From a virus, in IMG/VR virus record IMGVR_UViG_3300012264_000012, positions 1-32,748 of that record: a DNA stretch of 32,748 bases. One strand, written 5' to 3'. This document shows positions 1 to 23,872 of the stretch, piece after piece (the first letter of the stretch is position 1; each line of letters opens with the position of its first letter). A program made the position numbers and the translations under genes. A model generated the notes under the pieces. It saw only the letters and a program-made list of their open reading frames with translations, did not search any database and was not told the DNA's origin.

Positions 1-31
1 AAACGCATTTACCGAGAAAAAGGCTATTGCA

Positions 32-70
32 GTAATGCAGTTGTAATGCAATTACGATTATAAAGCATTA
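32..70. repeat. Short direct repeats GTAATGCA beside the tRNA half
   Basis: GTAATGCA occurs at 32-39 and 43-50, an 11-bp period. The second copy is part of the inverted repeat GTAAT-GCA-ATTAC (43-55), and GCATTA follows at 65-70 in the opposite orientation. Short repeats this close to a tRNA-derived att core resemble integrase arm-type or excisionase sites. That role is inference; the repeats themselves are seen. Confidence 0.35.
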
Positions 71-92
71 AACTAGGCTGAATCATAAAGGA

Positions 93-140
93 ATTTTACG
101 CTCCCGAAAAGCCAAAAAGCCCGTAAAATAAGGTTTTTTT
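93..140 (+). terminator. Rho-independent terminator, plus strand
   Basis: The arms ATTTTACG (93-100) and CGTAAAAT (122-129) are perfect complements and are followed at 134-140 by seven T. It would end a plus-strand transcript coming from outside the window on the left. No gene is visible in 1-92. Confidence 0.45.
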
Positions 141-174
141 AACTAGATAAAACAGTATGAAATGGACTTCCTTA

Positions 175-221
175 GAATGGCATTCAAGAGGTAAGGGGTT
201 CGATCCCCCTCATCTCCACCA
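175..221 (+). other. 3' half of tRNA-Ala(GGC), probable att core
   Basis: From about 175 the sequence reads as the 3' half of a tRNA. It has an anticodon loop ATGGCAT with anticodon GGC, the 3' anticodon-stem strand TCAAG, a 5-nt variable loop AGGTA, a T-arm AGGGG-TTCGATC-CCCCT, an acceptor strand CATCTCC, discriminator A and an encoded CCA at 219-221. U at acceptor position 70 fits the G3-U70 alanine identity pair. There is no D-arm or 5' acceptor strand upstream, and the 5' anticodon stem is disrupted (CTTA before GAATGGC). Such 3'-half copies are what tyrosine integrases leave at the distal end of an element inserted in a tRNA gene. Given the orientation, that element would lie to the left, outside the window. 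A decayed tRNA gene is the alternative. Confidence 0.75.
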
Positions 222-650: not shown

Positions 651-2246
651 TTAAGCAGTGACTTCTGAACCGTTTTTGAACCTGAATGTCATTATGCTGT
701 CACGGTCGACCGTCACTTGGTCGATTACGGCAAGCCACAGTTTTTCATCAAACCCGTCGATGGCAAGCGGTCGGTTCTCGATGTCTTTGATGAAGCCTTC
801 GATAATTTTACCCTTGCCGAGCCGCTCCCGTTTGGCGGCTTCCAACTCGTCGACCCGCTCCATGGCTTTGCGGTGGCGTCCAAGATAGGCGTTATTGCGC
901 TCCGCCCATTCGGTCTGGTCTACTACTGTTCGGGCATTTTCGTAAATCGCCTTTCTGTAAAGTTCGGTGACAACTTCAATCTCACGGAATAATTCGGCAA
1001 GTTCCGTATCAATCGCCGTCGTGTCACAAAGGACATTTTGAGCAAGGCGGCAGTCCTCAATCAGCCCGTCGCGGTCATGCATCAGTTGGTTGAAAGCTGT
1101 TAAAAACCTTTCCTTAATCTCATCTTCGGTGATATGTGGCGTTTGGCATCCTTTTCCGGGGTTGCCAAGCCGTTTGTATTTATCATTGCACTGCCAGACC
1201 TCTTTACGGTAGGTCTTATCACCCTTATAACTGCCCCAGACCTTTTTGCCGAAGCGACCGCCACAATCTGCACAGATAAGCCTTGATGCAAATATACTCG
1301 TGCTACTCGTGGGTCTGCCGAGGCTTTTACGACGCTCAATTTCAAGCTGAACCGCATCGAATTCATCAGGCTCGATAATGGCGGGGTGGCTGTTTTCTAC
1401 GTAGTATTGCTGAACCTGCCCCGTGTTCTTGACCATCTTCTTGGTCAGGAAGTCTGTGCAGTAGGTTTTTTGCAAAAGGGCGTGGCCTTTATACTTTTCA
1501 TTGGTCAGGATTGACCGAACCACCGCCGTTTGCCACGTTTCCTTTCCTGCTGGGGATGGGATGCCGTGGTTGCCAAGGTATTTGGCGATTGCCGAGAAGG
1601 TCTTGCCCTCCATAAAAAGCCTGAAGATAAGCCGTACAATTTCCGCTTCGGCGGGGATTATTTTCGGTAAACCGTCCTCGCCTTTTTCGTATCCGAGAAA
1701 TTGTTTATACGGAAGGCTAACCTTGCCGTCTGACATACGCTTGCGCTGCCCCCAAGTCACGTTCTCCGAAATGGAGCGGCTCTCCTCCTGTGCCAAGCTA
1801 CTCATAATTGTAATAAGCAACTCGCCCTTGGAATCCAGCGTGTAGATGTTCTCCTTCTCGAACCAAACCTCCACGCCTTTTTCCTTGAGTTTGCGGACGG
1901 TCGTGAGACTGTCCACCGTGTTTCGGGCAAAGCGGCTGACCGACTTTGTGACGATGAGGTCGATGCCGCCCTCCAGAGCGTCAGCTACCATCTGGTTAAA
2001 TCCGTCACGCTTCTTGGTGTTGACCGCCGAAATGCCCTCGTCCGTGTAGACGGTCACAAACTCCCAGTCCTCTCGGCTCTGGATGAATTTCGTGTAGTAG
2101 TCCACCTGCGCTTCATAGCTTGTAAGCTGCTCGTCGCTGTCGGTGGAAACCCTCGCATAAGCCGCCACGCGCCGCTTGACAGTGTTCGCCTTTGACTGCG
2201 CCGACAAAGCTGGGGCGGTAGCGGGGATAACTCGTATATTAGCCAT
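651..2246 (-). CDS. Large serine recombinase with coiled coil (prophage integrase candidate)
   Basis: Large serine recombinases cut and rejoin attP and attB through a covalent serine-DNA link. The N-terminal resolvase domain has the catalytic motif YARVS (Ser34 with the chosen start) and the later SRFARN arginine segment. A recombinase domain follows, then a zinc ribbon (CADC, later WQCN and GC pairs), then a charged helical stretch rich in Leu/Glu/Arg (about residues 415-490) that fits the coiled coil controlling integration versus excision. I chose ATG 2246 because GGGAGG sits 8 nt before it; the upstream GTG at 2255 overlaps that ribosome binding site. The gene overlaps the end of the second recombinase by 8 bp, so translation is probably coupled. 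It is the last gene before the presumed attachment region and the best candidate for the integrase. About 531 aa, normal for the family. Confidence 0.93.
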   Translation of the reverse strand: MANIRVIPATAPALSAQSKANTVKRRVAAYARVSTDSDEQLTSYEAQVDYYTKFIQSREDWEFVTVYTDEGISAVNTKKRDGFNQMVADALEGGIDLIVTKSVSRFARNTVDSLTTVRKLKEKGVEVWFEKENIYTLDSKGELLITIMSSLAQEESRSISENVTWGQRKRMSDGKVSLPYKQFLGYEKGEDGLPKIIPAEAEIVRLIFRLFMEGKTFSAIAKYLGNHGIPSPAGKETWQTAVVRSILTNEKYKGHALLQKTYCTDFLTKKMVKNTGQVQQYYVENSHPAIIEPDEFDAVQLEIERRKSLGRPTSSTSIFASRLICADCGGRFGKKVWGSYKGDKTYRKEVWQCNDKYKRLGNPGKGCQTPHITEDEIKERFLTAFNQLMHDRDGLIEDCRLAQNVLCDTTAIDTELAELFREIEVVTELYRKAIYENARTVVDQTEWAERNNAYLGRHRKAMERVDELEAAKRERLGKGKIIEGFIKDIENRPLAIDGFDEKLWLAVIDQVTVDRDSIMTFRFKNGSEVTA

Positions 2247-3552
2247 TGTCCGCACCTCCCAACGCTCGTTCTCTTGCGGTTTGCTTCATCTCGTCTGTCC
2301 AACTATCTCGGCGGGAGCGATTCTCCCAAGTGACTGTTTGCTCTGAACCGTCTTTAAAGACAAACACCAGAACGCCGTCATCGGGGATTGTTATCGCAGC
2401 AACCTTTGCCGTGAATACATCGGGGTCGTGTTCCGCAAGCCCTAAAAGCTCGGCACACTTTTCTTTGAGAATGTCCTCGGGTATTCGTTTGGCGGCGCAT
2501 TCGTGCTTGCCCTTGTAAGTGTAGGTGGCGCAAGCCCAAACCACCTTAGCGTATTTTGTGCCGATGCCGTTTACCTTTTTGCGGAATTTCGCTCCACATC
2601 TTTCGCAGGTGATAAGCCCTGAAAACTCGCTGAATGTTAGCTTCCGAGGATGGTTTGCCTTCGCTGCTCGCCGAGCTATCTCTATTTGAACTGCCTCGAA
2701 AGTCTCTCTGTCAATAATGGCTTCGTGTGAGCCTTCGACATAATATTTCGGCAGCTCACCGGTGTTTGATTTCCATTGTTTGGTGAGGTGGTCAGTGATA
2801 AAACCCTTTTGCAAGCACGTATCACCGATGAATTTTTCATTCTTGAGAATTGAACCCACGGTGCTTTCCGACCACCGACCGCCGCACTTGGTGGGGACTT
2901 TGAGCTTAACCAACTTCTTCATAATTGCATTTTTACCAAGTCCCGATAGATAGTCGGCGAATATCATCCGCACGACCTCGGCTTCTTCGGGAATAATGGT
3001 TAACTTGAAGTCCTTATAATCAAACCCATAAATGCGGATGTTATTAGAGGGCTTGCCCTCCTTGAAATCTTTTCTGATACGCCACTTCTGGTTTTCGCTG
3101 ACCGAACGGCTCTCCTCCTGTGCGTAGCTTGCGAGGATGGTTAGCATTAACTCCCCATCGCCCGAAAGTGAATGTAGGTTCTGCTCCTCAAAATATACGC
3201 CGACACCGAGGTCTTTGAGTTCCCGTACAGTTTCAAGCAGCGTGACCGTATTTCTCGCAAAGCGACTGATTGACTTCGTGAGGACGAGGTCAATGTGTCC
3301 CGTCCTGCAATCGGTAATCAGTCGTTGGAATTCGGGTCTTGAATCTTTTGTGCCGGTTTCCGCTTCGTCGGCATACACGCCGACATACTCCCATTCGGGC
3401 TTACCCTGTATCAGATTGCTGTAATAGCTGACTTGAGCGGCAAGGGAATGAAGCATTTCATCTTTTCCGCTGGAAACACGGGCGTAGGCTGCGACCTGCT
3501 GTCTGGTCGGCAACTCCGCTGTGTGTTCAATTTTCGTTATCTTTCTGCCCAT
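2239..3552 (-). CDS. Second serine recombinase, shorter, lacking an obvious coiled coil
   Basis: It has the same architecture as its neighbour up to the zinc ribbon: catalytic YARVS (Ser27), SRFARN arginines, recombinase domain, and Cys pairs ITCERCG with a later WACATY and HEC. The chain then ends after about 85 residues without the long charged helical region seen in the 531-aa recombinase. ATG 3552 is preceded by AAAGGAGG with 5-nt spacing; the longer reading frame starting at 3576 is less likely. About 437 aa. The start lies inside the 3' end of the SHOCT-like gene, and a promoter-like element (3574-3605) lies just upstream. It may be a partner that forms hetero-oligomers with the first recombinase, an integrase of a separate former element, or a regulator. 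Active-site residues look intact. Confidence 0.92.
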   Translation of the reverse strand: MGRKITKIEHTAELPTRQQVAAYARVSSGKDEMLHSLAAQVSYYSNLIQGKPEWEYVGVYADEAETGTKDSRPEFQRLITDCRTGHIDLVLTKSISRFARNTVTLLETVRELKDLGVGVYFEEQNLHSLSGDGELMLTILASYAQEESRSVSENQKWRIRKDFKEGKPSNNIRIYGFDYKDFKLTIIPEEAEVVRMIFADYLSGLGKNAIMKKLVKLKVPTKCGGRWSESTVGSILKNEKFIGDTCLQKGFITDHLTKQWKSNTGELPKYYVEGSHEAIIDRETFEAVQIEIARRAAKANHPRKLTFSEFSGLITCERCGAKFRKKVNGIGTKYAKVVWACATYTYKGKHECAAKRIPEDILKEKCAELLGLAEHDPDVFTAKVAAITIPDDGVLVFVFKDGSEQTVTWENRSRRDSWTDEMKQTARERALGGADNG

Positions 3553-3766
3553 AATGGCCTCCTTTCGCACTACCATATATCACTCTATTTTCCTTACATA
3601 GCAAGTCATTTTCGAGGAATATACTGCACGAGGATAAACCGTACTTTTGGGCGAGCATTGTGTCTATTTCCAGCAGATCGTCATCAGAAATGACGCCGTC
3701 GGCGTGCCAGTTTTTGAACACCGCCATAGCAGACTTGTAGCGGAGGATTGCTTCGTCTTTACTCAT
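3527..3766 (-). CDS. Small SHOCT-like protein of the recombinase module
   Basis: This protein of about 79 aa starts at ATG 3766, with GAGGG a few nucleotides upstream. The core (KNWHADGVISDDDLLEID, then MLAQKYGL) resembles the SHOCT motif, a short helical segment usually at protein ends and thought to mediate oligomerisation. The last 25 or so residues are encoded by DNA that also carries the 3574-3605 promoter-like element and the next gene's ribosome binding site, so they may be unconstrained. It overlaps the upstream zinc-ribbon gene by 8 bp and the recombinase by 26 bp, which suggests a coupled set. Such small proteins are common next to serine recombinases in Firmicutes elements. A role as recombination helper or directionality factor is only a guess from position. 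Confidence 0.7.
   Translation of the reverse strand: MSKDEAILRYKSAMAVFKNWHADGVISDDDLLEIDTMLAQKYGLSSCSIFLENDLLCKENRVIYGSAKGGHYGQKDNEN
3574..3605 (-). promoter_or_regulatory. Promoter-like element, copy 1 (before recombinase pair)
   Basis: On the minus strand it reads CTTGCTAT, three variable bases, AGG, four variable bases, then TAGAGTGATATATG. The same blocks with identical spacing occur at 23873-23904. TTGCTA could be a -35 box and TGATATATG an extended -10 (TGnTATATG); the 19-bp gap is long for a housekeeping sigma factor. It lies 21 bp before the ATG of the 437-aa recombinase, inside the end of the SHOCT-like gene. Confidence 0.5.
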
Positions 3767-4163
3767 GGCAAGCCCTCTGCGACAGCCCGAAACAGGTACG
3801 GGAACAGTATCGACGACGTGCGTTACCGTAGCTTTCAAACTCCGCACCACAGGTCGGGCAGACGAAATGATAGACGGCTCTGCGGTTCACGGCTTCTGGG
3901 TGCGCCTTCCACCAAGCCATGCGGCATTTGTCGGAGCAGAAGCGTTTTTGTTTCGACCCCGGCGTGTGTCGGAGTGGACATCCGCAGTTGGCACAGGTTT
4001 TAGTGGTTATAAGTAGTTCTTGCTTTATCGCAACGCCGATGTTATTTCGGTGGCAGAAGGACTTGACGGTGTTTTCGGACATACCGAGATCGGCGGCGAT
4101 AGCGGCGTAGCTGTCGCCTCTGCCGCGTAAGTATTCAATCCGTTGTTTTTGAGCAGTAGTCAT
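3759..4163 (-). CDS. HTH protein with two zinc-ribbon-like Cys clusters
   Basis: A 134-aa protein. The first 45 residues form a helix-turn-helix resembling sigma-70 region 4 (YAAIAADLGMSENTVKSF). Two Cys clusters follow: CANC with CSDKC, and CPTC with CSRTC, each able to hold one zinc ion. I know similar proteins, often labelled 'sigma-70-like', next to serine recombinases in Firmicutes prophages; it lacks sigma region 2, so it is more likely a DNA-binding regulator than a sigma factor. ATG 4163 has GGAGG with 7-nt spacing. It is the first gene of the four-gene recombinase unit and follows the late-operon terminator at 4191-4231, so it probably needs its own promoter or read-through; I see no clear promoter in the 27 bp available. 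Confidence 0.75.
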   Translation of the reverse strand: MTTAQKQRIEYLRGRGDSYAAIAADLGMSENTVKSFCHRNNIGVAIKQELLITTKTCANCGCPLRHTPGSKQKRFCSDKCRMAWWKAHPEAVNRRAVYHFVCPTCGAEFESYGNARRRYCSRTCFGLSQRACHE

Positions 4164-5479: not shown

Positions 5480-7951
5480 TTATATTTGTTTGGGAAGAGC
5501 CTCCCAAAGCCTCAAATCTTCCTGACCGAGTGACCACAGAGCGAAGCCCCGAAGTCCCCATCGGTATGCCGCTTCATTTGCCCAGTAGACAATGCTGTCC
5601 ACGTCTTGGTAGTAGACAATACCGAAGCCGTCTCCATCACCGAGGAATAGCCGCGAGCACCAGACGTTAATATCTCTTGGTGTGAATTTCGCAGTGTAGT
5701 CGGCGTTGCATGGAATGTACAGCATCGCCGAATGTACGAAGTCGTAGTCCATTGATATATCCTCGCTTCGGGTAGAGGATTCCTCGATATCTGAGGTAAG
5801 CGCGAAAACCTCAAACTCGTCGTCCCATGTCACGCCGCTCCGGGATATCCTGCCGTAGCTTTCGGTCGAGCCGTCCGGCATGGTTACATCAAAGGCTTCA
5901 TACGGCTCGTAAGTCCAAGCGTCGCCCAAACGGAGCAGTTCGCACTTGATTTCGCTGTCTGACCGAATACCGCAGTAGCCACTTGTAGCCGATACCGTAG
6001 CCGTGAAGCGGAGGACATTGCTGCTGCCCGAATAGACCCTTACGCTGTTGCCTCGCTTCCTTAGTTCGATGAGGTACATATTCGGGTTCGTCCGAATATC
6101 GGCTTCAGGTGTTTTGTTGTAGGATGCGCTGTAACTGCCAAGCAAAGTCGAACCTTGGTAGAGTTCGATCCGCTGCGAATCGATGTTGATACAGCAGAAG
6201 ATATCGCCTATGAATACCCCGGCACGACCGCTCCCGTTGTGAGGGAAAGCAATCCGCGCCCGAAGGTGGACATCGGAGAAAGCGTCGTATTTCCACGCAA
6301 GCTGGCCGCTACCCTCAAGCTGCGAATAAACCCTGCCGGAGGCATACTGGTCACTCCGCCAGACTGCCCAACTGCCTGAAAGCGTAGTCCAGTAGGTGCT
6401 TTGCAGCGTGATGGGGTCGCGGAAGTCTTCATACCATGCCAGAGCCGAGTCGGGCTTTCGCCGCAGGACTTCGGTGGTTAGCTTGAAGCCTTTGTCCGGC
6501 ACGGCCATATTCCCGTTCACATCCTTGAAGCTGCGCGGCGAGAGTTCAAAAGTAGCAGAACCTGCCGAGGGCTGTTCCGAGAACGACGAGCAAAGGCGAA
6601 AACCGTAAAACTGTGCTCCCGCCACGCCGCCGTCAATGGTAATGGTGTGATCTCCTGCCGAAAGATTGCGTCCTTTGGCAAGAATCACCCAAAATGTGCT
6701 CCTCCAGTACGGCCACCACAGACGATTCTCAGAAAAGCCGACGGAAGAATCGTCAAGGGAAATGTTGATACCGTTCATATCCCAGTACGGATAGCAGATA
6801 CGCACCGCCACATCATAAACACCTGATTGAGGAACAGTGAAATTGTAGGTAGCCGTCCCATCGCTTGAAGAAAGCGTAATCATGCCGTTGCCGACCACCA
6901 CGCCGTCCGTGTAACTGTCCGGATCGCCGTCACGATCAATATAGATTGTGCCGAACTCCGCTTTTTGTGTTTTGCCGTAGCAAGTCAAGTATCGGCGGCG
7001 GTTGTAAGTCTCGCCGATTATCGGTGCTTCACGGCTTGTCGCATCGCCGCCCTCGGCATAATCGTAAACTTGGGGAAGCATATACGGTACTTGGTCGTAG
7101 TCGTCCCAGTAGGCAAGCCACGGTATCATCGGCTGCGGCGGAGCGTTCCCTGTAAAGTTATAGCCGCCCTCAGCCCATATTTTGGCGGCGTAGTAAGTAA
7201 GCGACACACCGCGATAAGTCTTGCCGAGGTCGGAGGGGTTGGCATAAATCTGCCACTCCCAGCCGTAACCCGGCAAACCCATATAGACTTTTTGCGGGTT
7301 CATCACCTGAATTGCATAATTGTAAACACCTACAAGCCAGTCGCGGGGTGAGACAGGACCCGGTGCGCTGCCTGCCCAGGACATGCCGTAGGACATAATC
7401 GCCGCCGTGTCGCAGTACGGATCGAGGTCGGCATATACACACCAGTTTTCACCGCCGACAGAGCCTTGGACACCTGTCATGCCGGGTAAACAGATATTGA
7501 CCAGCTTGGCGGGGTTATAGGTCTTGACGGTTTGGTAAATATCGCGGAAGAGAGCATTTGCCGCGTCCTTGTTTTCGTATCCGCCGCCGCGTTCTAAGTC
7601 GATGTCCACGCCAGCGCACCACGGATATTTCTGCATAATCCGCACCAATTCGGAGAGAAACTTTGTCTTTGCTCCGTTCGTGTTGTTTCGCAGGGCGGTG
7701 AAGATAGAGGCTGTTCCGTGGTTCATCACGGTAAGAAACCATCGCACCTTCGGCCATTTATTGATATACGGCATCATGCCGGATATCGGTGTTCCTGTTT
7801 CGGAGATTGTGCCTGTAATGTCCACCTCGAAGGTGAAGATGCCGACGGCTTCAAAGCGGTCACCGTATTTGTTTAAGGCTTGGTGCATTCGGGTGTTGCC
7901 CATAAACGACCATATCATGCACTTTTTGCCTTTAAGATAATCCCTGCTCAT
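5480..7951 (-). CDS. Tail-associated GH18-like glycosidase with inserted beta domains
   Basis: Residues 1-300 resemble the first part of a glycoside hydrolase 18 barrel: GVDIDLE with catalytic Glu120 (the first Asp of the usual DGxDxDxE is Ala113), MSYGMSW near 186-192, and KVYMGLPGYGWEW near 221-233. The last 50 residues (DSIVYWANEAAYRWGLRGFA, then LWSLGQED) look like the final strand and helix of the same barrel with its Trp. Between them lie about 450 residues: a CBM6-like beta region (about 335-455), then a LamG/concanavalin-like region (about 500-690). So the barrel appears interrupted by binding domains. It probably cuts or binds a surface polysaccharide during adsorption. It overlaps the upstream gene by ATGA. 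823 aa. Substrate unknown; chitinase activity should not be assumed. Confidence 0.8.
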   Translation of the reverse strand: MSRDYLKGKKCMIWSFMGNTRMHQALNKYGDRFEAVGIFTFEVDITGTISETGTPISGMMPYINKWPKVRWFLTVMNHGTASIFTALRNNTNGAKTKFLSELVRIMQKYPWCAGVDIDLERGGGYENKDAANALFRDIYQTVKTYNPAKLVNICLPGMTGVQGSVGGENWCVYADLDPYCDTAAIMSYGMSWAGSAPGPVSPRDWLVGVYNYAIQVMNPQKVYMGLPGYGWEWQIYANPSDLGKTYRGVSLTYYAAKIWAEGGYNFTGNAPPQPMIPWLAYWDDYDQVPYMLPQVYDYAEGGDATSREAPIIGETYNRRRYLTCYGKTQKAEFGTIYIDRDGDPDSYTDGVVVGNGMITLSSSDGTATYNFTVPQSGVYDVAVRICYPYWDMNGINISLDDSSVGFSENRLWWPYWRSTFWVILAKGRNLSAGDHTITIDGGVAGAQFYGFRLCSSFSEQPSAGSATFELSPRSFKDVNGNMAVPDKGFKLTTEVLRRKPDSALAWYEDFRDPITLQSTYWTTLSGSWAVWRSDQYASGRVYSQLEGSGQLAWKYDAFSDVHLRARIAFPHNGSGRAGVFIGDIFCCINIDSQRIELYQGSTLLGSYSASYNKTPEADIRTNPNMYLIELRKRGNSVRVYSGSSNVLRFTATVSATSGYCGIRSDSEIKCELLRLGDAWTYEPYEAFDVTMPDGSTESYGRISRSGVTWDDEFEVFALTSDIEESSTRSEDISMDYDFVHSAMLYIPCNADYTAKFTPRDINVWCSRLFLGDGDGFGIVYYQDVDSIVYWANEAAYRWGLRGFALWSLGQEDLRLWEALPKQI

Positions 7952-12047: not shown

Positions 12048-14516
12048 CTATGCCGGGCTAAACCGTCCCTGCGCCCGAGAGCCGGTCTGCATCAGGTTAT
12101 ACAGTTCCTGTGAAATTCTGCGGATGTCGTCCTCGCTGCGGACAATCATCTGCTGTATGGTGATGAGTGCAGGCACTCCTGACACCGCCAAGCCGCCATA
12201 ACTTCCGGTCACATCACCCACATTTATGCCGGGTGTATCAAAAGCGGTGGGGATGGCGTTTTGCATATCTTCAGCGACTTCATCCATCGCCCGCTCGAAG
12301 CCCACGCCGATACCCTGACCCATGTTCTCACCAAGCCCGGCAAATAAGGTGGAGGGAGAGCGGATGCCGAAGAAGTTTTTGATGCCGTCGACAATACCGC
12401 CGAAGAAACCGGATATTTTGCTCCAAATCCAGTCTGCTGCATTGGAAATACCCTGCCAAAGTCCCTTTATGAGGTCAGTACCGACTTGCACGATTTTGCC
12501 GATGTTGCCGGTAAAGCCCTTGACGATGGCAGTAATAATCTGGGGTATCGCTTTCACTATTTCCACGATGATGGTCGGGAGGTTCTTTATCAGTGACACG
12601 AAAAGCTGTATGCCCGCTTGAACCAGCTGCGGGATACTCCCGATAATCGCCGTTACGAGTGACGAGATAATCTGTGGTATCGCCGCCACGACCGCCGTTA
12701 TTATCTGCGGCAAGTTCTGTACCAGCGATACCAATAGCTGAATTCCAGCGTCAATAAGCTGCGGAATAGAGCCGAGGATCGCCGTAATCAAGCCTTCAAT
12801 AATCTGTGGTATTGCCGCCACAATTGCTGTGATGATTTCGGGCAAGGCTCCTATCAAGGAAACCAGAAGCTGAATCCCAGCATCGATGATCTGCGGAATC
12901 GCCCCGATGATGAAATCCACGATGCCGATGATAATGGCAGGCAGAGCCGCTATCAATTGGGGCAGTGCGTCCAAAATCCCCTGTGTCAGCCCGAGAACCA
13001 GTTGCAAAGCCGCATCCAGTATCATAGGCAGACTGTCCATTAACCCCTGAACGATTGTTACCACGGCATTAACCGCCGCAGGTATCAATTGCGGAAGTGC
13101 GTCGGCAATGCCCGTGACAAGGGTAGTCACCAACTGCACTGCAGCGTCGATGAGGAGCGGGAGGTTATCAATCAGCGCGCCTACAATGGTCATAACCGCT
13201 TCTACAGCGGCAGGGATGAGTTCAGGCAGGAGCGTCAAAATTGTTGTCAGCACCTGTGTGAACAGTTCCGTGACCGTGGAGAGCAGCGTCGGAAGCAGAT
13301 CCCCGACTGCTTGTAATATCCCGGCAAGAGCAGGAGGCAGAGCCTTAACGATATTCTCTATAACCGGAACGATGTTTTTCACGACGTTCTGGAACGCCTC
13401 GACCACATTTCCAATCAAAAGCTCGATGTCTGCGTCGGCGTTACCCAGACCCGCCATTAAGTTGCCTATTGCCGACTGCATACCTGAAATAGAGCCGGTT
13501 ATGGTTTCTGTGGCTTCCAAAGCGGTCGTGCCGGTGATGCCCATTTCGGTCTGAATCACATGTATGGCTTCGGTCAAATCCGAAAACGACGATAGGTCGT
13601 ACTTAATGCCGGAGATTTTCTCAGCATCAGCTAAGAGCCGCTCCATTTCGGACTTCGTGCCGCCGTATCCCAGTTTGAGGTTGTCAAGCATCGTGTAGTT
13701 CTGCTTGGCGAAACCCTGATAGGCGTTTTGTATGGAGGCGATGTCCGTACCCATTTTATTGGCGTTGTCGGCCATATCGGTAATGGCCATGTCTGCAACC
13801 TGAGCCGCTTTTGCGGTGTCGCCGCCGAGGGATTGGATGAGACTTGCTGAAAAGCCCGTGACGGTTTCCATATACTCGTTCGCGGACATTCCGGCGGTCT
13901 TGAAGGCATTTTCGGCATACCCCTGAACAGCTTGCGATGACTCGCCGAACAGAGTGTCCACACCGCCGACCAGTTGCTCGTAATCGGCATACGCTGCTAT
14001 GACTTCTTTGCCGAGCTTGACGGCGGCAGCTCCGGCGGCGACAGCCACCGCACCCATTGCGACGCCGATGCCCTTGAGGATGCCGCCCAGTTTCTCAAAC
14101 TTGCCGCCGCTTTTTTCTGCGCTGTCGCCAGCGTCCTCCAGTTCCTCACCGAGGTCGTCGGCTTCCTCTGCTGATTCTTCCAGTTCGCGCTCCATATTAT
14201 TGAGTTCGGTGTTGGCGTTATTCAGAGCAATCTGCCAGTTTTGGGTGCGGCGATCGTTTTCACCAAAGCTGTCGGAGGCGTTTCTAAGAGCGGCTTCAAG
14301 AGTGGAGATTTTGTCCTTCTGGGCATCGATTGCCTTGTTCAGCACTTCGTTACGAGCGGAGGTAGCCGCTATCGATTTATCCTGCTTTTCGAATTCGCTC
14401 GTTACCAGCTTCATTTCGCTGCCCAGTACCTTGAACGACTGGTTTATATCACGAAGGGCACTCTTAAACTCTTTCTCGCCCTCGACGCCTATTTTCAGCC
14501 CGAAATTATCAGCCAC
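12048..14516 (-). CDS. Tail tape measure protein
   Basis: It sets tail length and is threaded into the tail tube. Residues 1-130 are a charged helical coiled coil with many Lys/Glu; residues about 150-175 are a hydrophobic Gly/Ala helix; residues about 180-350 resemble the TP901-type core (GGVDTLFGESSQAVQGYAEN, MADNANKMGTDIASIQNAYQ). Residues about 385-680 are a long series of hydrophobic repeats with LPxLI and IPQII motifs. The C-terminus has SPSTLFAGLGENMGQGIGVG, common in Firmicutes tape measures. GTG start at 14516 with GGAGG 8 nt upstream. 822 aa; by the usual 1.5 angstrom per residue, the tail would be around 120 nm (inference). Confidence 0.95.
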   Translation of the reverse strand: MADNFGLKIGVEGEKEFKSALRDINQSFKVLGSEMKLVTSEFEKQDKSIAATSARNEVLNKAIDAQKDKISTLEAALRNASDSFGENDRRTQNWQIALNNANTELNNMERELEESAEEADDLGEELEDAGDSAEKSGGKFEKLGGILKGIGVAMGAVAVAAGAAAVKLGKEVIAAYADYEQLVGGVDTLFGESSQAVQGYAENAFKTAGMSANEYMETVTGFSASLIQSLGGDTAKAAQVADMAITDMADNANKMGTDIASIQNAYQGFAKQNYTMLDNLKLGYGGTKSEMERLLADAEKISGIKYDLSSFSDLTEAIHVIQTEMGITGTTALEATETITGSISGMQSAIGNLMAGLGNADADIELLIGNVVEAFQNVVKNIVPVIENIVKALPPALAGILQAVGDLLPTLLSTVTELFTQVLTTILTLLPELIPAAVEAVMTIVGALIDNLPLLIDAAVQLVTTLVTGIADALPQLIPAAVNAVVTIVQGLMDSLPMILDAALQLVLGLTQGILDALPQLIAALPAIIIGIVDFIIGAIPQIIDAGIQLLVSLIGALPEIITAIVAAIPQIIEGLITAILGSIPQLIDAGIQLLVSLVQNLPQIITAVVAAIPQIISSLVTAIIGSIPQLVQAGIQLFVSLIKNLPTIIVEIVKAIPQIITAIVKGFTGNIGKIVQVGTDLIKGLWQGISNAADWIWSKISGFFGGIVDGIKNFFGIRSPSTLFAGLGENMGQGIGVGFERAMDEVAEDMQNAIPTAFDTPGINVGDVTGSYGGLAVSGVPALITIQQMIVRSEDDIRRISQELYNLMQTGSRAQGRFSPA
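12510..12905 (-). repeat. Three tandem 132-bp repeats in the tape measure gene
   Basis: Three 44-codon units begin at 12905, 12773 and 12641. Each starts G-x-I-P-Q and carries AGIQLxVSL and a second IPQII. Earlier codons (to about 13330) contain more divergent related units. Such in-frame repeats allow tail length to change by recombination. Confidence 0.8.
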
Positions 14517-14541: not shown

Positions 14542-14745
14542 TCAGATGCCATCAGGGATGACATCCTCTATAAACAGTTCGCGCTTTGGTTTTGTCATTC
14601 CGAGGAATTGACGATGGCATTCCCACAAGTCCAGCAATTGCCCAATAGGTGTGAGCCACGTTTCCTCTTCGGAGCGATTCAGATGAACCGTGCCGTAATA
14701 TAAGAGTCGGGTAAACAACTCATTGTCGCTTACCCGACCTCGGCG
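14542..14745 (-). CDS. Frameshift extension of tail assembly chaperone (gpGT-like)
   Basis: In the -1 frame after the slippery heptamer the reading frame stays open for 67 codons, ending with TGA at 14542-14544. It includes NELFTRLLYYGTVHLNRSEE, TWLTPIGQLLDLWECHRQFL and KPKRELFIEDVIPDGI. I see no in-frame ATG near its beginning and no ribosome binding site, so it is expected only as a 191-aa fusion (124 residues of the 128-aa protein plus 67). This matches the lambda G/GT arrangement, where the fusion loads the major tail protein onto the tape measure. Located between the chaperone and the tape measure, as in other siphophages. Confidence 0.85.
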   Translation of the reverse strand, partial: RRGRVSDNELFTRLLYYGTVHLNRSEEETWLTPIGQLLDLWECHRQFLGMTKPKRELFIEDVIPDGI

Positions 14746-14751
14746 TTTTTT
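14706..14751 (-). promoter_or_regulatory. Programmed -1 ribosomal frameshift site with hairpin
   Basis: The heptamer A-AAA-AAC (14751-14745) lies in the right phase in codons CCA AAA AAC. Six bases later a hairpin starts: arms at 14738-14725 and 14719-14706 pair over 14 bp (two G-U pairs) around loop AATGA. The zero-frame stop TAA (14730-14732) is inside the stem. Confidence 0.9.
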
Positions 14752-15116
14752 GGCTCGCCATCCTCGCTTTCGATGTTACGAGCCGTCCCTTTGAACATCG
14801 CCTCGGTGATTGCTGTCTTATATGCTGCCAATTCCAACGGCGAAGTGAGCAATTCCACTTCTTCCTCGGTCAGCAGATCTTTCGGTTTTTCCTTATTCCT
14901 AAGGTTGTGGATGAGGATGGGCTGGTTGGCGAGAAGCGTAATCAACCAAATAATCTCGTCCAAAGCCATCTCAAAGTTTTCTGACTTCATCAGCTTTTCA
15001 CCGAGATTCTCCAAGCCGCCGTAGCGTTTGGCGATTTCCTTTGTGGCACGGGTGGACAAGACCAGCTCGTAATCCTCACCGCCAATTTTGATGAAGGCAC
15101 TACGTTCGTTATCCAT
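14730..15116 (-). CDS. Tail assembly chaperone (gpG-like), zero-frame product
   Basis: A 128-aa, mostly helical acidic protein. It begins MDNERSAFIKIGGEDYELVL and contains a Thr-Lys-Glu helix (STRATKEIAKRYGGLENLGE) typical of phage tail assembly chaperones of this class. It lies between the major tail protein and the tape measure, the fixed place for this function. It ends after EPKNAEVG; near the end the -1 slippery site allows a longer product. Four bp separate its start from the stop of the major tail protein gene. It is not part of the virion in the lambda paradigm. Confidence 0.88.
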   Translation of the reverse strand: MDNERSAFIKIGGEDYELVLSTRATKEIAKRYGGLENLGEKLMKSENFEMALDEIIWLITLLANQPILIHNLRNKEKPKDLLTEEEVELLTSPLELAAYKTAITEAMFKGTARNIESEDGEPKNAEVG

Positions 15117-15119
15117 GAG

Positions 15120-15719
15120 TTAGCCCTCCAAACCCGTGTCAAAATCAGGTTCATACACCTGCGTATACCAGCCGCTGATTACATCAACCAACACATCCGC
15201 ATCGTCTTCGTTGACTTCCGCTTTCCACGGATGACGGTCGTTGCCGTCCGGCTTGTTGCGGCGAGAGACCGTACCTTCGATACTCGGTGTTGAAAAGGTG
15301 ATGCTGTCGCCCTTGGTGGCGAGGTTGGTGGACGGAACGCCGAACTTCACGCGGTACAGCCAGAAGTAGCGGTACTTACCGTTTGCTTTCTTCGCCCGAA
15401 AGCCAATAGCGACAGGGTCGCCGCCGTCCTCTGAAGCCGAGATAAGGACGCCATTTTCATCCGTGGTCGCTCCTGTCAGCTTGGCAGCGACGGTCTTTCC
15501 GATGTCGTCCACGCCAAGAGTCAGTTTGCCGTTTTTGAATTCCTTGATGATTTCGGCGGCACCGTCGTCCGCCCATAGTGTCGCTTCCGCAAGTTCGATA
15601 GATAGTTCCGCCGAGATTGCCTTAGCCAGCATTACGGGAGTGCCGTAGGTCTCGTGACCCGTGATTGGCGCTTCGGTAACCGTTGCGTAGTAAAGTTTGT
15701 CAAGCCCGATTGTAGCCAT
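15120..15719 (-). CDS. Major tail (tube) protein
   Basis: It builds the tail tube. MATIGLDKLYYATVTEA, the GTPVMLAKAISAELSIELAE segment with ATLWADDGAAE, and TLGVDDIG are characteristic of the phi13-type major tail proteins of Firmicutes siphophages; a large share of Lys/Gly/Thr with beta pattern fits. ATG 15719 has GGAGG 9 nt upstream, giving 199 aa; the frame's earlier start at 15740 reads through the ribosome binding site. The C-terminus after PWKAEVNEDDADVLVD is a short extension. One base separates its start from the stop of the tail terminator gene. Confidence 0.9.
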   Translation of the reverse strand: MATIGLDKLYYATVTEAPITGHETYGTPVMLAKAISAELSIELAEATLWADDGAAEIIKEFKNGKLTLGVDDIGKTVAAKLTGATTDENGVLISASEDGGDPVAIGFRAKKANGKYRYFWLYRVKFGVPSTNLATKGDSITFSTPSIEGTVSRRNKPDGNDRHPWKAEVNEDDADVLVDVISGWYTQVYEPDFDTGLEG

Positions 15720-15720
15720 G

Positions 15721-16062
15721 TCAATTTTCCTCCGTTTCATATTCTTTCGCCGCGTCTATGGCGAAGTGGTGGTAGCCGCTGTCATTCTCATGACCGATAT
15801 AGCGGCGATCTGTTATGGTGAACGCCGCCCCAAGCAGGGCGGCGGTAATCTGATTCTTTCTGTTGATGTAATTGCCTTTTGAAAACAGGGATATCCGCAC
15901 CTCGGACACATCAATAAGCGGAGAATTATCGCCGAATAGAGCAAACTCATCCGTCATCGGTGTGAGGACAAGGTACTCGTCCGGTGCAATTCCGCTAAAT
16001 ATGCCCGTTTCCACCGGCAGGATGGGAGAGAGCAGCGTGTTCAGTTCCTGCAAAATGCTCAT
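15721..16062 (-). CDS. Tail terminator / tail completion protein (by position)
   Basis: A 113-aa protein lying between the gp10-like protein and the major tail protein, where siphophages keep the protein that caps the tail tube. It begins MSILQELNTLLSPILPVETG and contains YLVLTPMTDEFALFGDN and SEVRISLFSKGNY, consistent with the small minor capsid/tail-joining families. No catalytic motif. ATGA overlap with the gp10-like gene. Function is given mainly by gene order. Confidence 0.7.
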   Translation of the reverse strand: MSILQELNTLLSPILPVETGIFSGIAPDEYLVLTPMTDEFALFGDNSPLIDVSEVRISLFSKGNYINRKNQITAALLGAAFTITDRRYIGHENDSGYHHFAIDAAKEYETEEN

Positions 16063-23816: not shown

Positions 23817-23872
23817 GTTCGTTTCCTCCGTTTTCCTTGATTTTGCGGGGTTTTTTCGTCCTCCGCGCATTA

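Follow-up and report, generated by a model that had tools for sequence, protein, structure and literature searches.

A candidate programmed -1 frameshift with a covarying hairpin in the putative tail assembly chaperone gene of a virus record

A -1 frameshift in a tail-building gene is a well-known phage trick, and the slippery heptamer of phage lambda is G_GGA_AAG. The lambda G/GT arrangement yields mainly a 0-frame chaperone and, as a minority product, a fusion, linking the tape measure and the tail tube subunit (PMC5009743). In the Lactococcus phage TP901-1, gpG/gpT form the chaperone pair of a Gram-positive siphophage, with the in-phase slippery heptamer GGGAAAG (PMC4493119), and the GeneTack frameshift clusters include A_AAA_AAC among their consensus heptamers and hold one phage tail assembly chaperone cluster with 6-7% frameshifting (PMC3711429). 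A_AAA_AAC is reported to slip with low efficiency in E. coli, and it is very probably used by insertion sequences (PMC4066793). The locus analysed here lies in a virus record of 32,748 bases (the window, meaning this whole stretch), in which the structural genes sit on the minus strand. It had been described from its sequence as a 'textbook' frameshift, a description that suits the pattern and not the strength, given the low efficiency of A_AAA_AAC in E. coli (PMC4066793).

The tail module and the probable frameshift signal

The features of the locus, in window positions, are as follows.

15120-15740, minus strand: major tail protein, upstream neighbour of the frameshift gene (phrog_88; TIGR01603 maj_tail_phi13, E = 5e-28)
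14730-15116, minus strand: 0-frame ORF, putative G-like tail assembly chaperone of 128 aa (phrog_2115, predicted fold)
14745-14751, minus strand: slippery heptamer A_AAA_AAC in 0-frame phase (in phase in 218/228 distinct relatives)
14739-14744, minus strand: 6-nt spacer GCCGAG (heptamer-hairpin geometry identical in 223/246 loci)
14706-14738, minus strand: putative stimulatory hairpin, 14-bp stem and 5-nt loop (z = -6.0; covariation)
14730-14732, minus strand: 0-frame stop TAA within the 5' arm of the stem, at stem positions 7-9
14542-14745, minus strand: -1 frame extension of 67 codons plus stop, putative T-like domain (phrog_10988; frame in relatives)
12048-14516, minus strand: tape measure protein, downstream neighbour of the frameshift gene (phrog_58, E = 1e-114)

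The chaperone ORF thus has the major tail protein gene on its upstream side and the tape measure gene on its downstream side, which is the synteny expected of a lambda G/GT-type pair. It matches phrog_2115 ('tail protein') with E = 1e-28, the -1 extension matches phrog_10988 ('unknown function') with E = 5e-26, and no Pfam or NCBIfam family covers either half. AlphaFold2 modelled the 0-frame protein as a beta-hairpin with helices after it (pLDDT 78 for the best model, 45-55 for the remaining models) and the extension as a small helical domain (pLDDT 84). A Foldseek search of viral models with the 0-frame protein, whose best model reached a pLDDT of 78 only, returned tail assembly chaperones and 'tail tube' proteins with E values down to 4.5e-6; synteny and, more tentatively, this predicted fold fit the suggestion, made originally by analogy with lambda, that the products would be a gpG/gpGT-type pair. 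Homology to solved structures was also considered and was rejected, as searches of the PDB by sequence and by fold gave nothing significant for either half.

The 3' end of the 0-frame ORF reads ...GAG CCA AAA AAC GCC GAG GTC GGG TAA, and the hairpin (14738-14706 on the minus strand) has the sequence GTCGGGTAAGCGAC-AATGA-GTTGTTTACCCGAC, with two G.U pairs in the stem. Reading of both frames bore out the original prediction that the heptamer is in the correct phase, that the hairpin begins 6 nt downstream of it and that the zero-frame stop lies inside the hairpin. The -1 reading is open for 67 codons past the slip, with a stop that ends at 14542, as had been claimed, and the predicted fusion is 191 aa long with an Asn-Arg junction; the accompanying claim that the extension has no start of its own was less accurate, for extension codon 10 (14718) in the -1 frame is a TTG; it falls in the hairpin's 3' arm, and no ribosome-binding site could be recognised for it.

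The 67-nt stretch has a folding energy of -28.9 kcal/mol (z = -6.0), and none of 200 shuffled sequences was equally stable. Among the 29 window genes scanned, a strong hairpin at the right distance was found only at this in-phase heptamer (-25.0 kcal/mol), the sole other in-phase AAAAAAC, at 23856, giving -2.4 kcal/mol. No known Rfam element was found at the frameshift site.

Some features elsewhere in the window are recorded here. A tail-to-lysis region protein with a glycosyl hydrolase family 18 domain is encoded at 5480-7951 (minus strand), and two adjacent, overlapping large serine recombinases, each with Resolvase and Recombinase domains, at 651-2255 and 2239-3576 (minus strand). There is a weak tmRNA match near these recombinase genes, at the extreme end of the record (1-221, plus strand; RF00023 at 21 bits, against a gathering score of 47 bits), where ARAGORN found no tmRNA; it is possible that this marks the attachment site of a prophage in a tmRNA gene.

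Conservation of the slip site and the shifted frame

Relatives were collected in several scans. The first, which used the full query, returned 80 viral loci, but one of its search patterns overlapped the slip site, which is a source of bias, and scans were repeated with queries ending before the slip site, two on viral and one on bacterial genomes (mostly Bacillota). Removal of duplicates left 228 distinct relatives. AAAAAAC was in phase in 218 of these, and the loci from queries ending before the slip site gave it in 55/61 (viral), 59/61 (genomic) and 30/30 (viral) cases. The other ten relatives have AAAAAAT (4), AAAAAAA (1), CCCAAAC (1), CCCAAAA (2), AGAAAAC (1) or an apparent indel (1), so that most relatives without AAAAAAC still carry another X_XXY_YYZ heptamer, and A_AAA_AAG was not found as the frameshift heptamer in any of the 228. 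AGAAAAC (in L101) is not a strict slippery heptamer. In L184, an Anaerocolumna sedimenticola prophage, the chaperone ORF is one base out of register upstream (about 3860-3900) while heptamer and hairpin are intact, an apparent indel that would reflect either a decayed gene or a sequencing error.

Almost all relatives have a run of six A within the heptamer, and RNA polymerase could in principle slip on such a run to give mRNAs of differing length. Six-A runs are usually too short for transcriptional slippage, and the variants CCCAAAC (in L129) and CCCAAAATAA (in L079 and L148, an in-phase C_CCA_AAA of which the very next codon is the 0-frame stop) keep an in-phase X_XXY_YYZ heptamer without the six-A run. 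Because these variants keep the slippery pattern in this way, and given the selection on a downstream RNA stem at fixed spacing that is described below, we regard transcriptional slippage as extremely improbable.

An extension was found in 225 loci, and in 223 of these its frame is -1 with respect to the chaperone ORF; the two without a simple -1 frame are L184 and a locus with an intron (L082), after which the frame resumes. The position of the 0-frame stop varies (its end is 13, 22, 25 or 40 nt from the heptamer start) and the -1 frame is still open past it. Diversity in the extension by codon position is 0.28/0.20/0.57, a codon-like constraint. Absence of conservation of heptamer, hairpin and -1 frame from related phages had been named as a result that would count against the original prediction; all three are strongly conserved (218/228, 223/246 and 223/225).

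The intron, in phage PV036457.1, is a 2,471-nt group II intron (4417-6887 of L082) within the -1 extension, 12 nt past the frameshift hairpin, with an RF00029 match (E = 7.5e-9) and an ORF with reverse transcriptase, maturase and HNH domains. Excising it in silico joins TAT|TAC and exactly restores the conserved -1 frame, which supports a coding role for the extension, and production of the fusion in this phage would depend on the predicted splicing. A second candidate intron locus (L173) was discounted, as the two contigs share 7,147 nt at 100% identity and represent one case.

A coding extension might alternatively be a separate gene, begun at the TTG at 14718 or by translational coupling and overlapping the chaperone ORF incidentally. 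Annotators do call short ORFs within the extension of related phages, and a TTG is present at extension codon 10. Such an independent start was rejected as it is not conserved among 114 non-redundant relatives: 37 lack any ATG, GTG or TTG in the -1 frame between the preceding stop and extension codon 20, an ATG or GTG is present in just 38, and a Shine-Dalgarno-like core lies upstream of just 5 of the first starts. Conserved extension residues precede the TTG, and a separate gene would leave the in-phase heptamer and the stem covariation unexplained. This makes the separate-gene explanation very unlikely. Nine annotated phage records, 7 of them assigned to 'Ca. Heliusvirales', show the extension as a separate and usually truncated 'hypothetical protein', and none of the nine has a joined frameshift gene annotated; the claim that ordinary gene calling misses the extension is qualified by these truncated calls.

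Covariation in the hairpin

Heptamer, 6-nt spacer, 14-bp stem and 5-nt loop are arranged identically in 223 of 246 loci, and most of the remaining loci differ by insertions around the stem that preserve the frame. Third codon positions in the -1 frame pair with one another across the two arms of the stem, leaving the RNA free to change without change to the protein. Covariation was examined over the first 50 extension codons of the 114 non-redundant loci, giving 1,225 third-third pairs, and the first four ranks of corrected mutual information among these were taken by stem pairs 5, 2, 11 and 8, which are four of the five third-third pairs in the stem. Stem pair 2, for example, occurs as UA, UG, CG, GU, GC and AU. 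Paired cells numbered 1466/1596, compared to 1360 +/- 6 after shuffling of synonymous codons between sequences, and the covariation score was 0.331, compared to at most 0.112 when the 3' partners were slid.

A search for compensatory changes in relatives had been proposed as a check, and these were found: on a tree built without the hairpin, compensatory double changes made up 16/25, 10/31 and 5/10 of the changes at pairs 5, 2 and 8 (32-64%), whereas control third-third pairs averaged 3.5% and reached 17% at most. The inner stem pairs 10, 11, 13 and 14 are looser (65-81% paired), suggesting that the firmly conserved stem consists of about nine base pairs with a variable top.

A stem this stable might also be a terminator, or a regulatory element unconnected with frameshifting, but it lacks a clean T run at its 3' side, it sits within the tail operon and within two reading frames, and its distance from the heptamer is constant at 6 nt in 223/246 loci, all of which render this explanation highly improbable. 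An optional upstream stimulator, a conserved Shine-Dalgarno sequence of the dnaX type, was also considered. Anti-Shine-Dalgarno affinity upstream of the heptamer peaks about 5-8 nt away, but Shine-Dalgarno-like cores (69/114, compared to 67.5 +/- 5 expected from synonymous-codon resampling) were not in excess, being no commoner than the acidic, purine-rich codons predict; in these alignments a putative stimulator and an effect of codon composition could not be told apart.

Proposed mechanism and comparison with known systems

A heptamer, a short spacer and a downstream RNA structure under selection, the elements of a -1 frameshift signal, are all present here, and the 0-frame ORF is overlapped by a shifted-frame ORF without a proper start, as is characteristic of a G/GT-type pair. 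Programmed -1 ribosomal frameshifting very probably yields two tail assembly chaperones of lambda G/GT type from one start codon. The majority of ribosomes would stay in the 0 frame as far as the TAA in the hairpin and make the 128-aa G-like protein, while a minority would be stalled by the hairpin as tRNA-Lys and tRNA-Asn occupy AAA AAC, would move back one base onto AAA AAA and would translate a further 67 codons, yielding the GT-like protein of 191 aa. If the roles are as in lambda, the G part would coat the tape measure, encoded by the next gene downstream, the T-like extension would recruit the major tail protein, encoded by the gene upstream, and both proteins would be absent from the finished virion.

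How much fusion is made may depend on the heptamer. We suggest tentatively, at rather less than even odds, that a heptamer weak by E. coli rules together with a strong hairpin at a fixed distance keeps the fusion fraction low, or else that Bacillota ribosomes slip well on this 'eukaryote-type' heptamer. The last base of the heptamer may be partly constrained by the first extension residue, which uses that base. The family described here offers a test of whether the E. coli slippage rules apply in Bacillota, and its large natural alignment backs a frameshift hairpin with synonymous covariation.

Homologues of both halves are held in PHROG 2115 and 10988, catalogued as two unlinked families and joined here by the predicted frameshift; linking phrog_2115 and phrog_10988 as a single frameshifted gene, found in the prophages of many Bacillota, would allow many 'hypothetical protein' calls to be corrected. 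No common sequence family was detected between lambda gpG/gpGT and the frameshift gene here, which differs from the lambda pair in having A_AAA_AAC with a strong conserved hairpin 6 nt on. The GeneTack tail cluster with 6-7% frameshifting resembles HK97. TP901-1 has the same kind of chaperone pair and, like the present locus, an in-phase slippery heptamer, although the heptamer itself differs (GGGAAAG in TP901-1). The case described here is best read as belonging to a known kind of phage frameshift.
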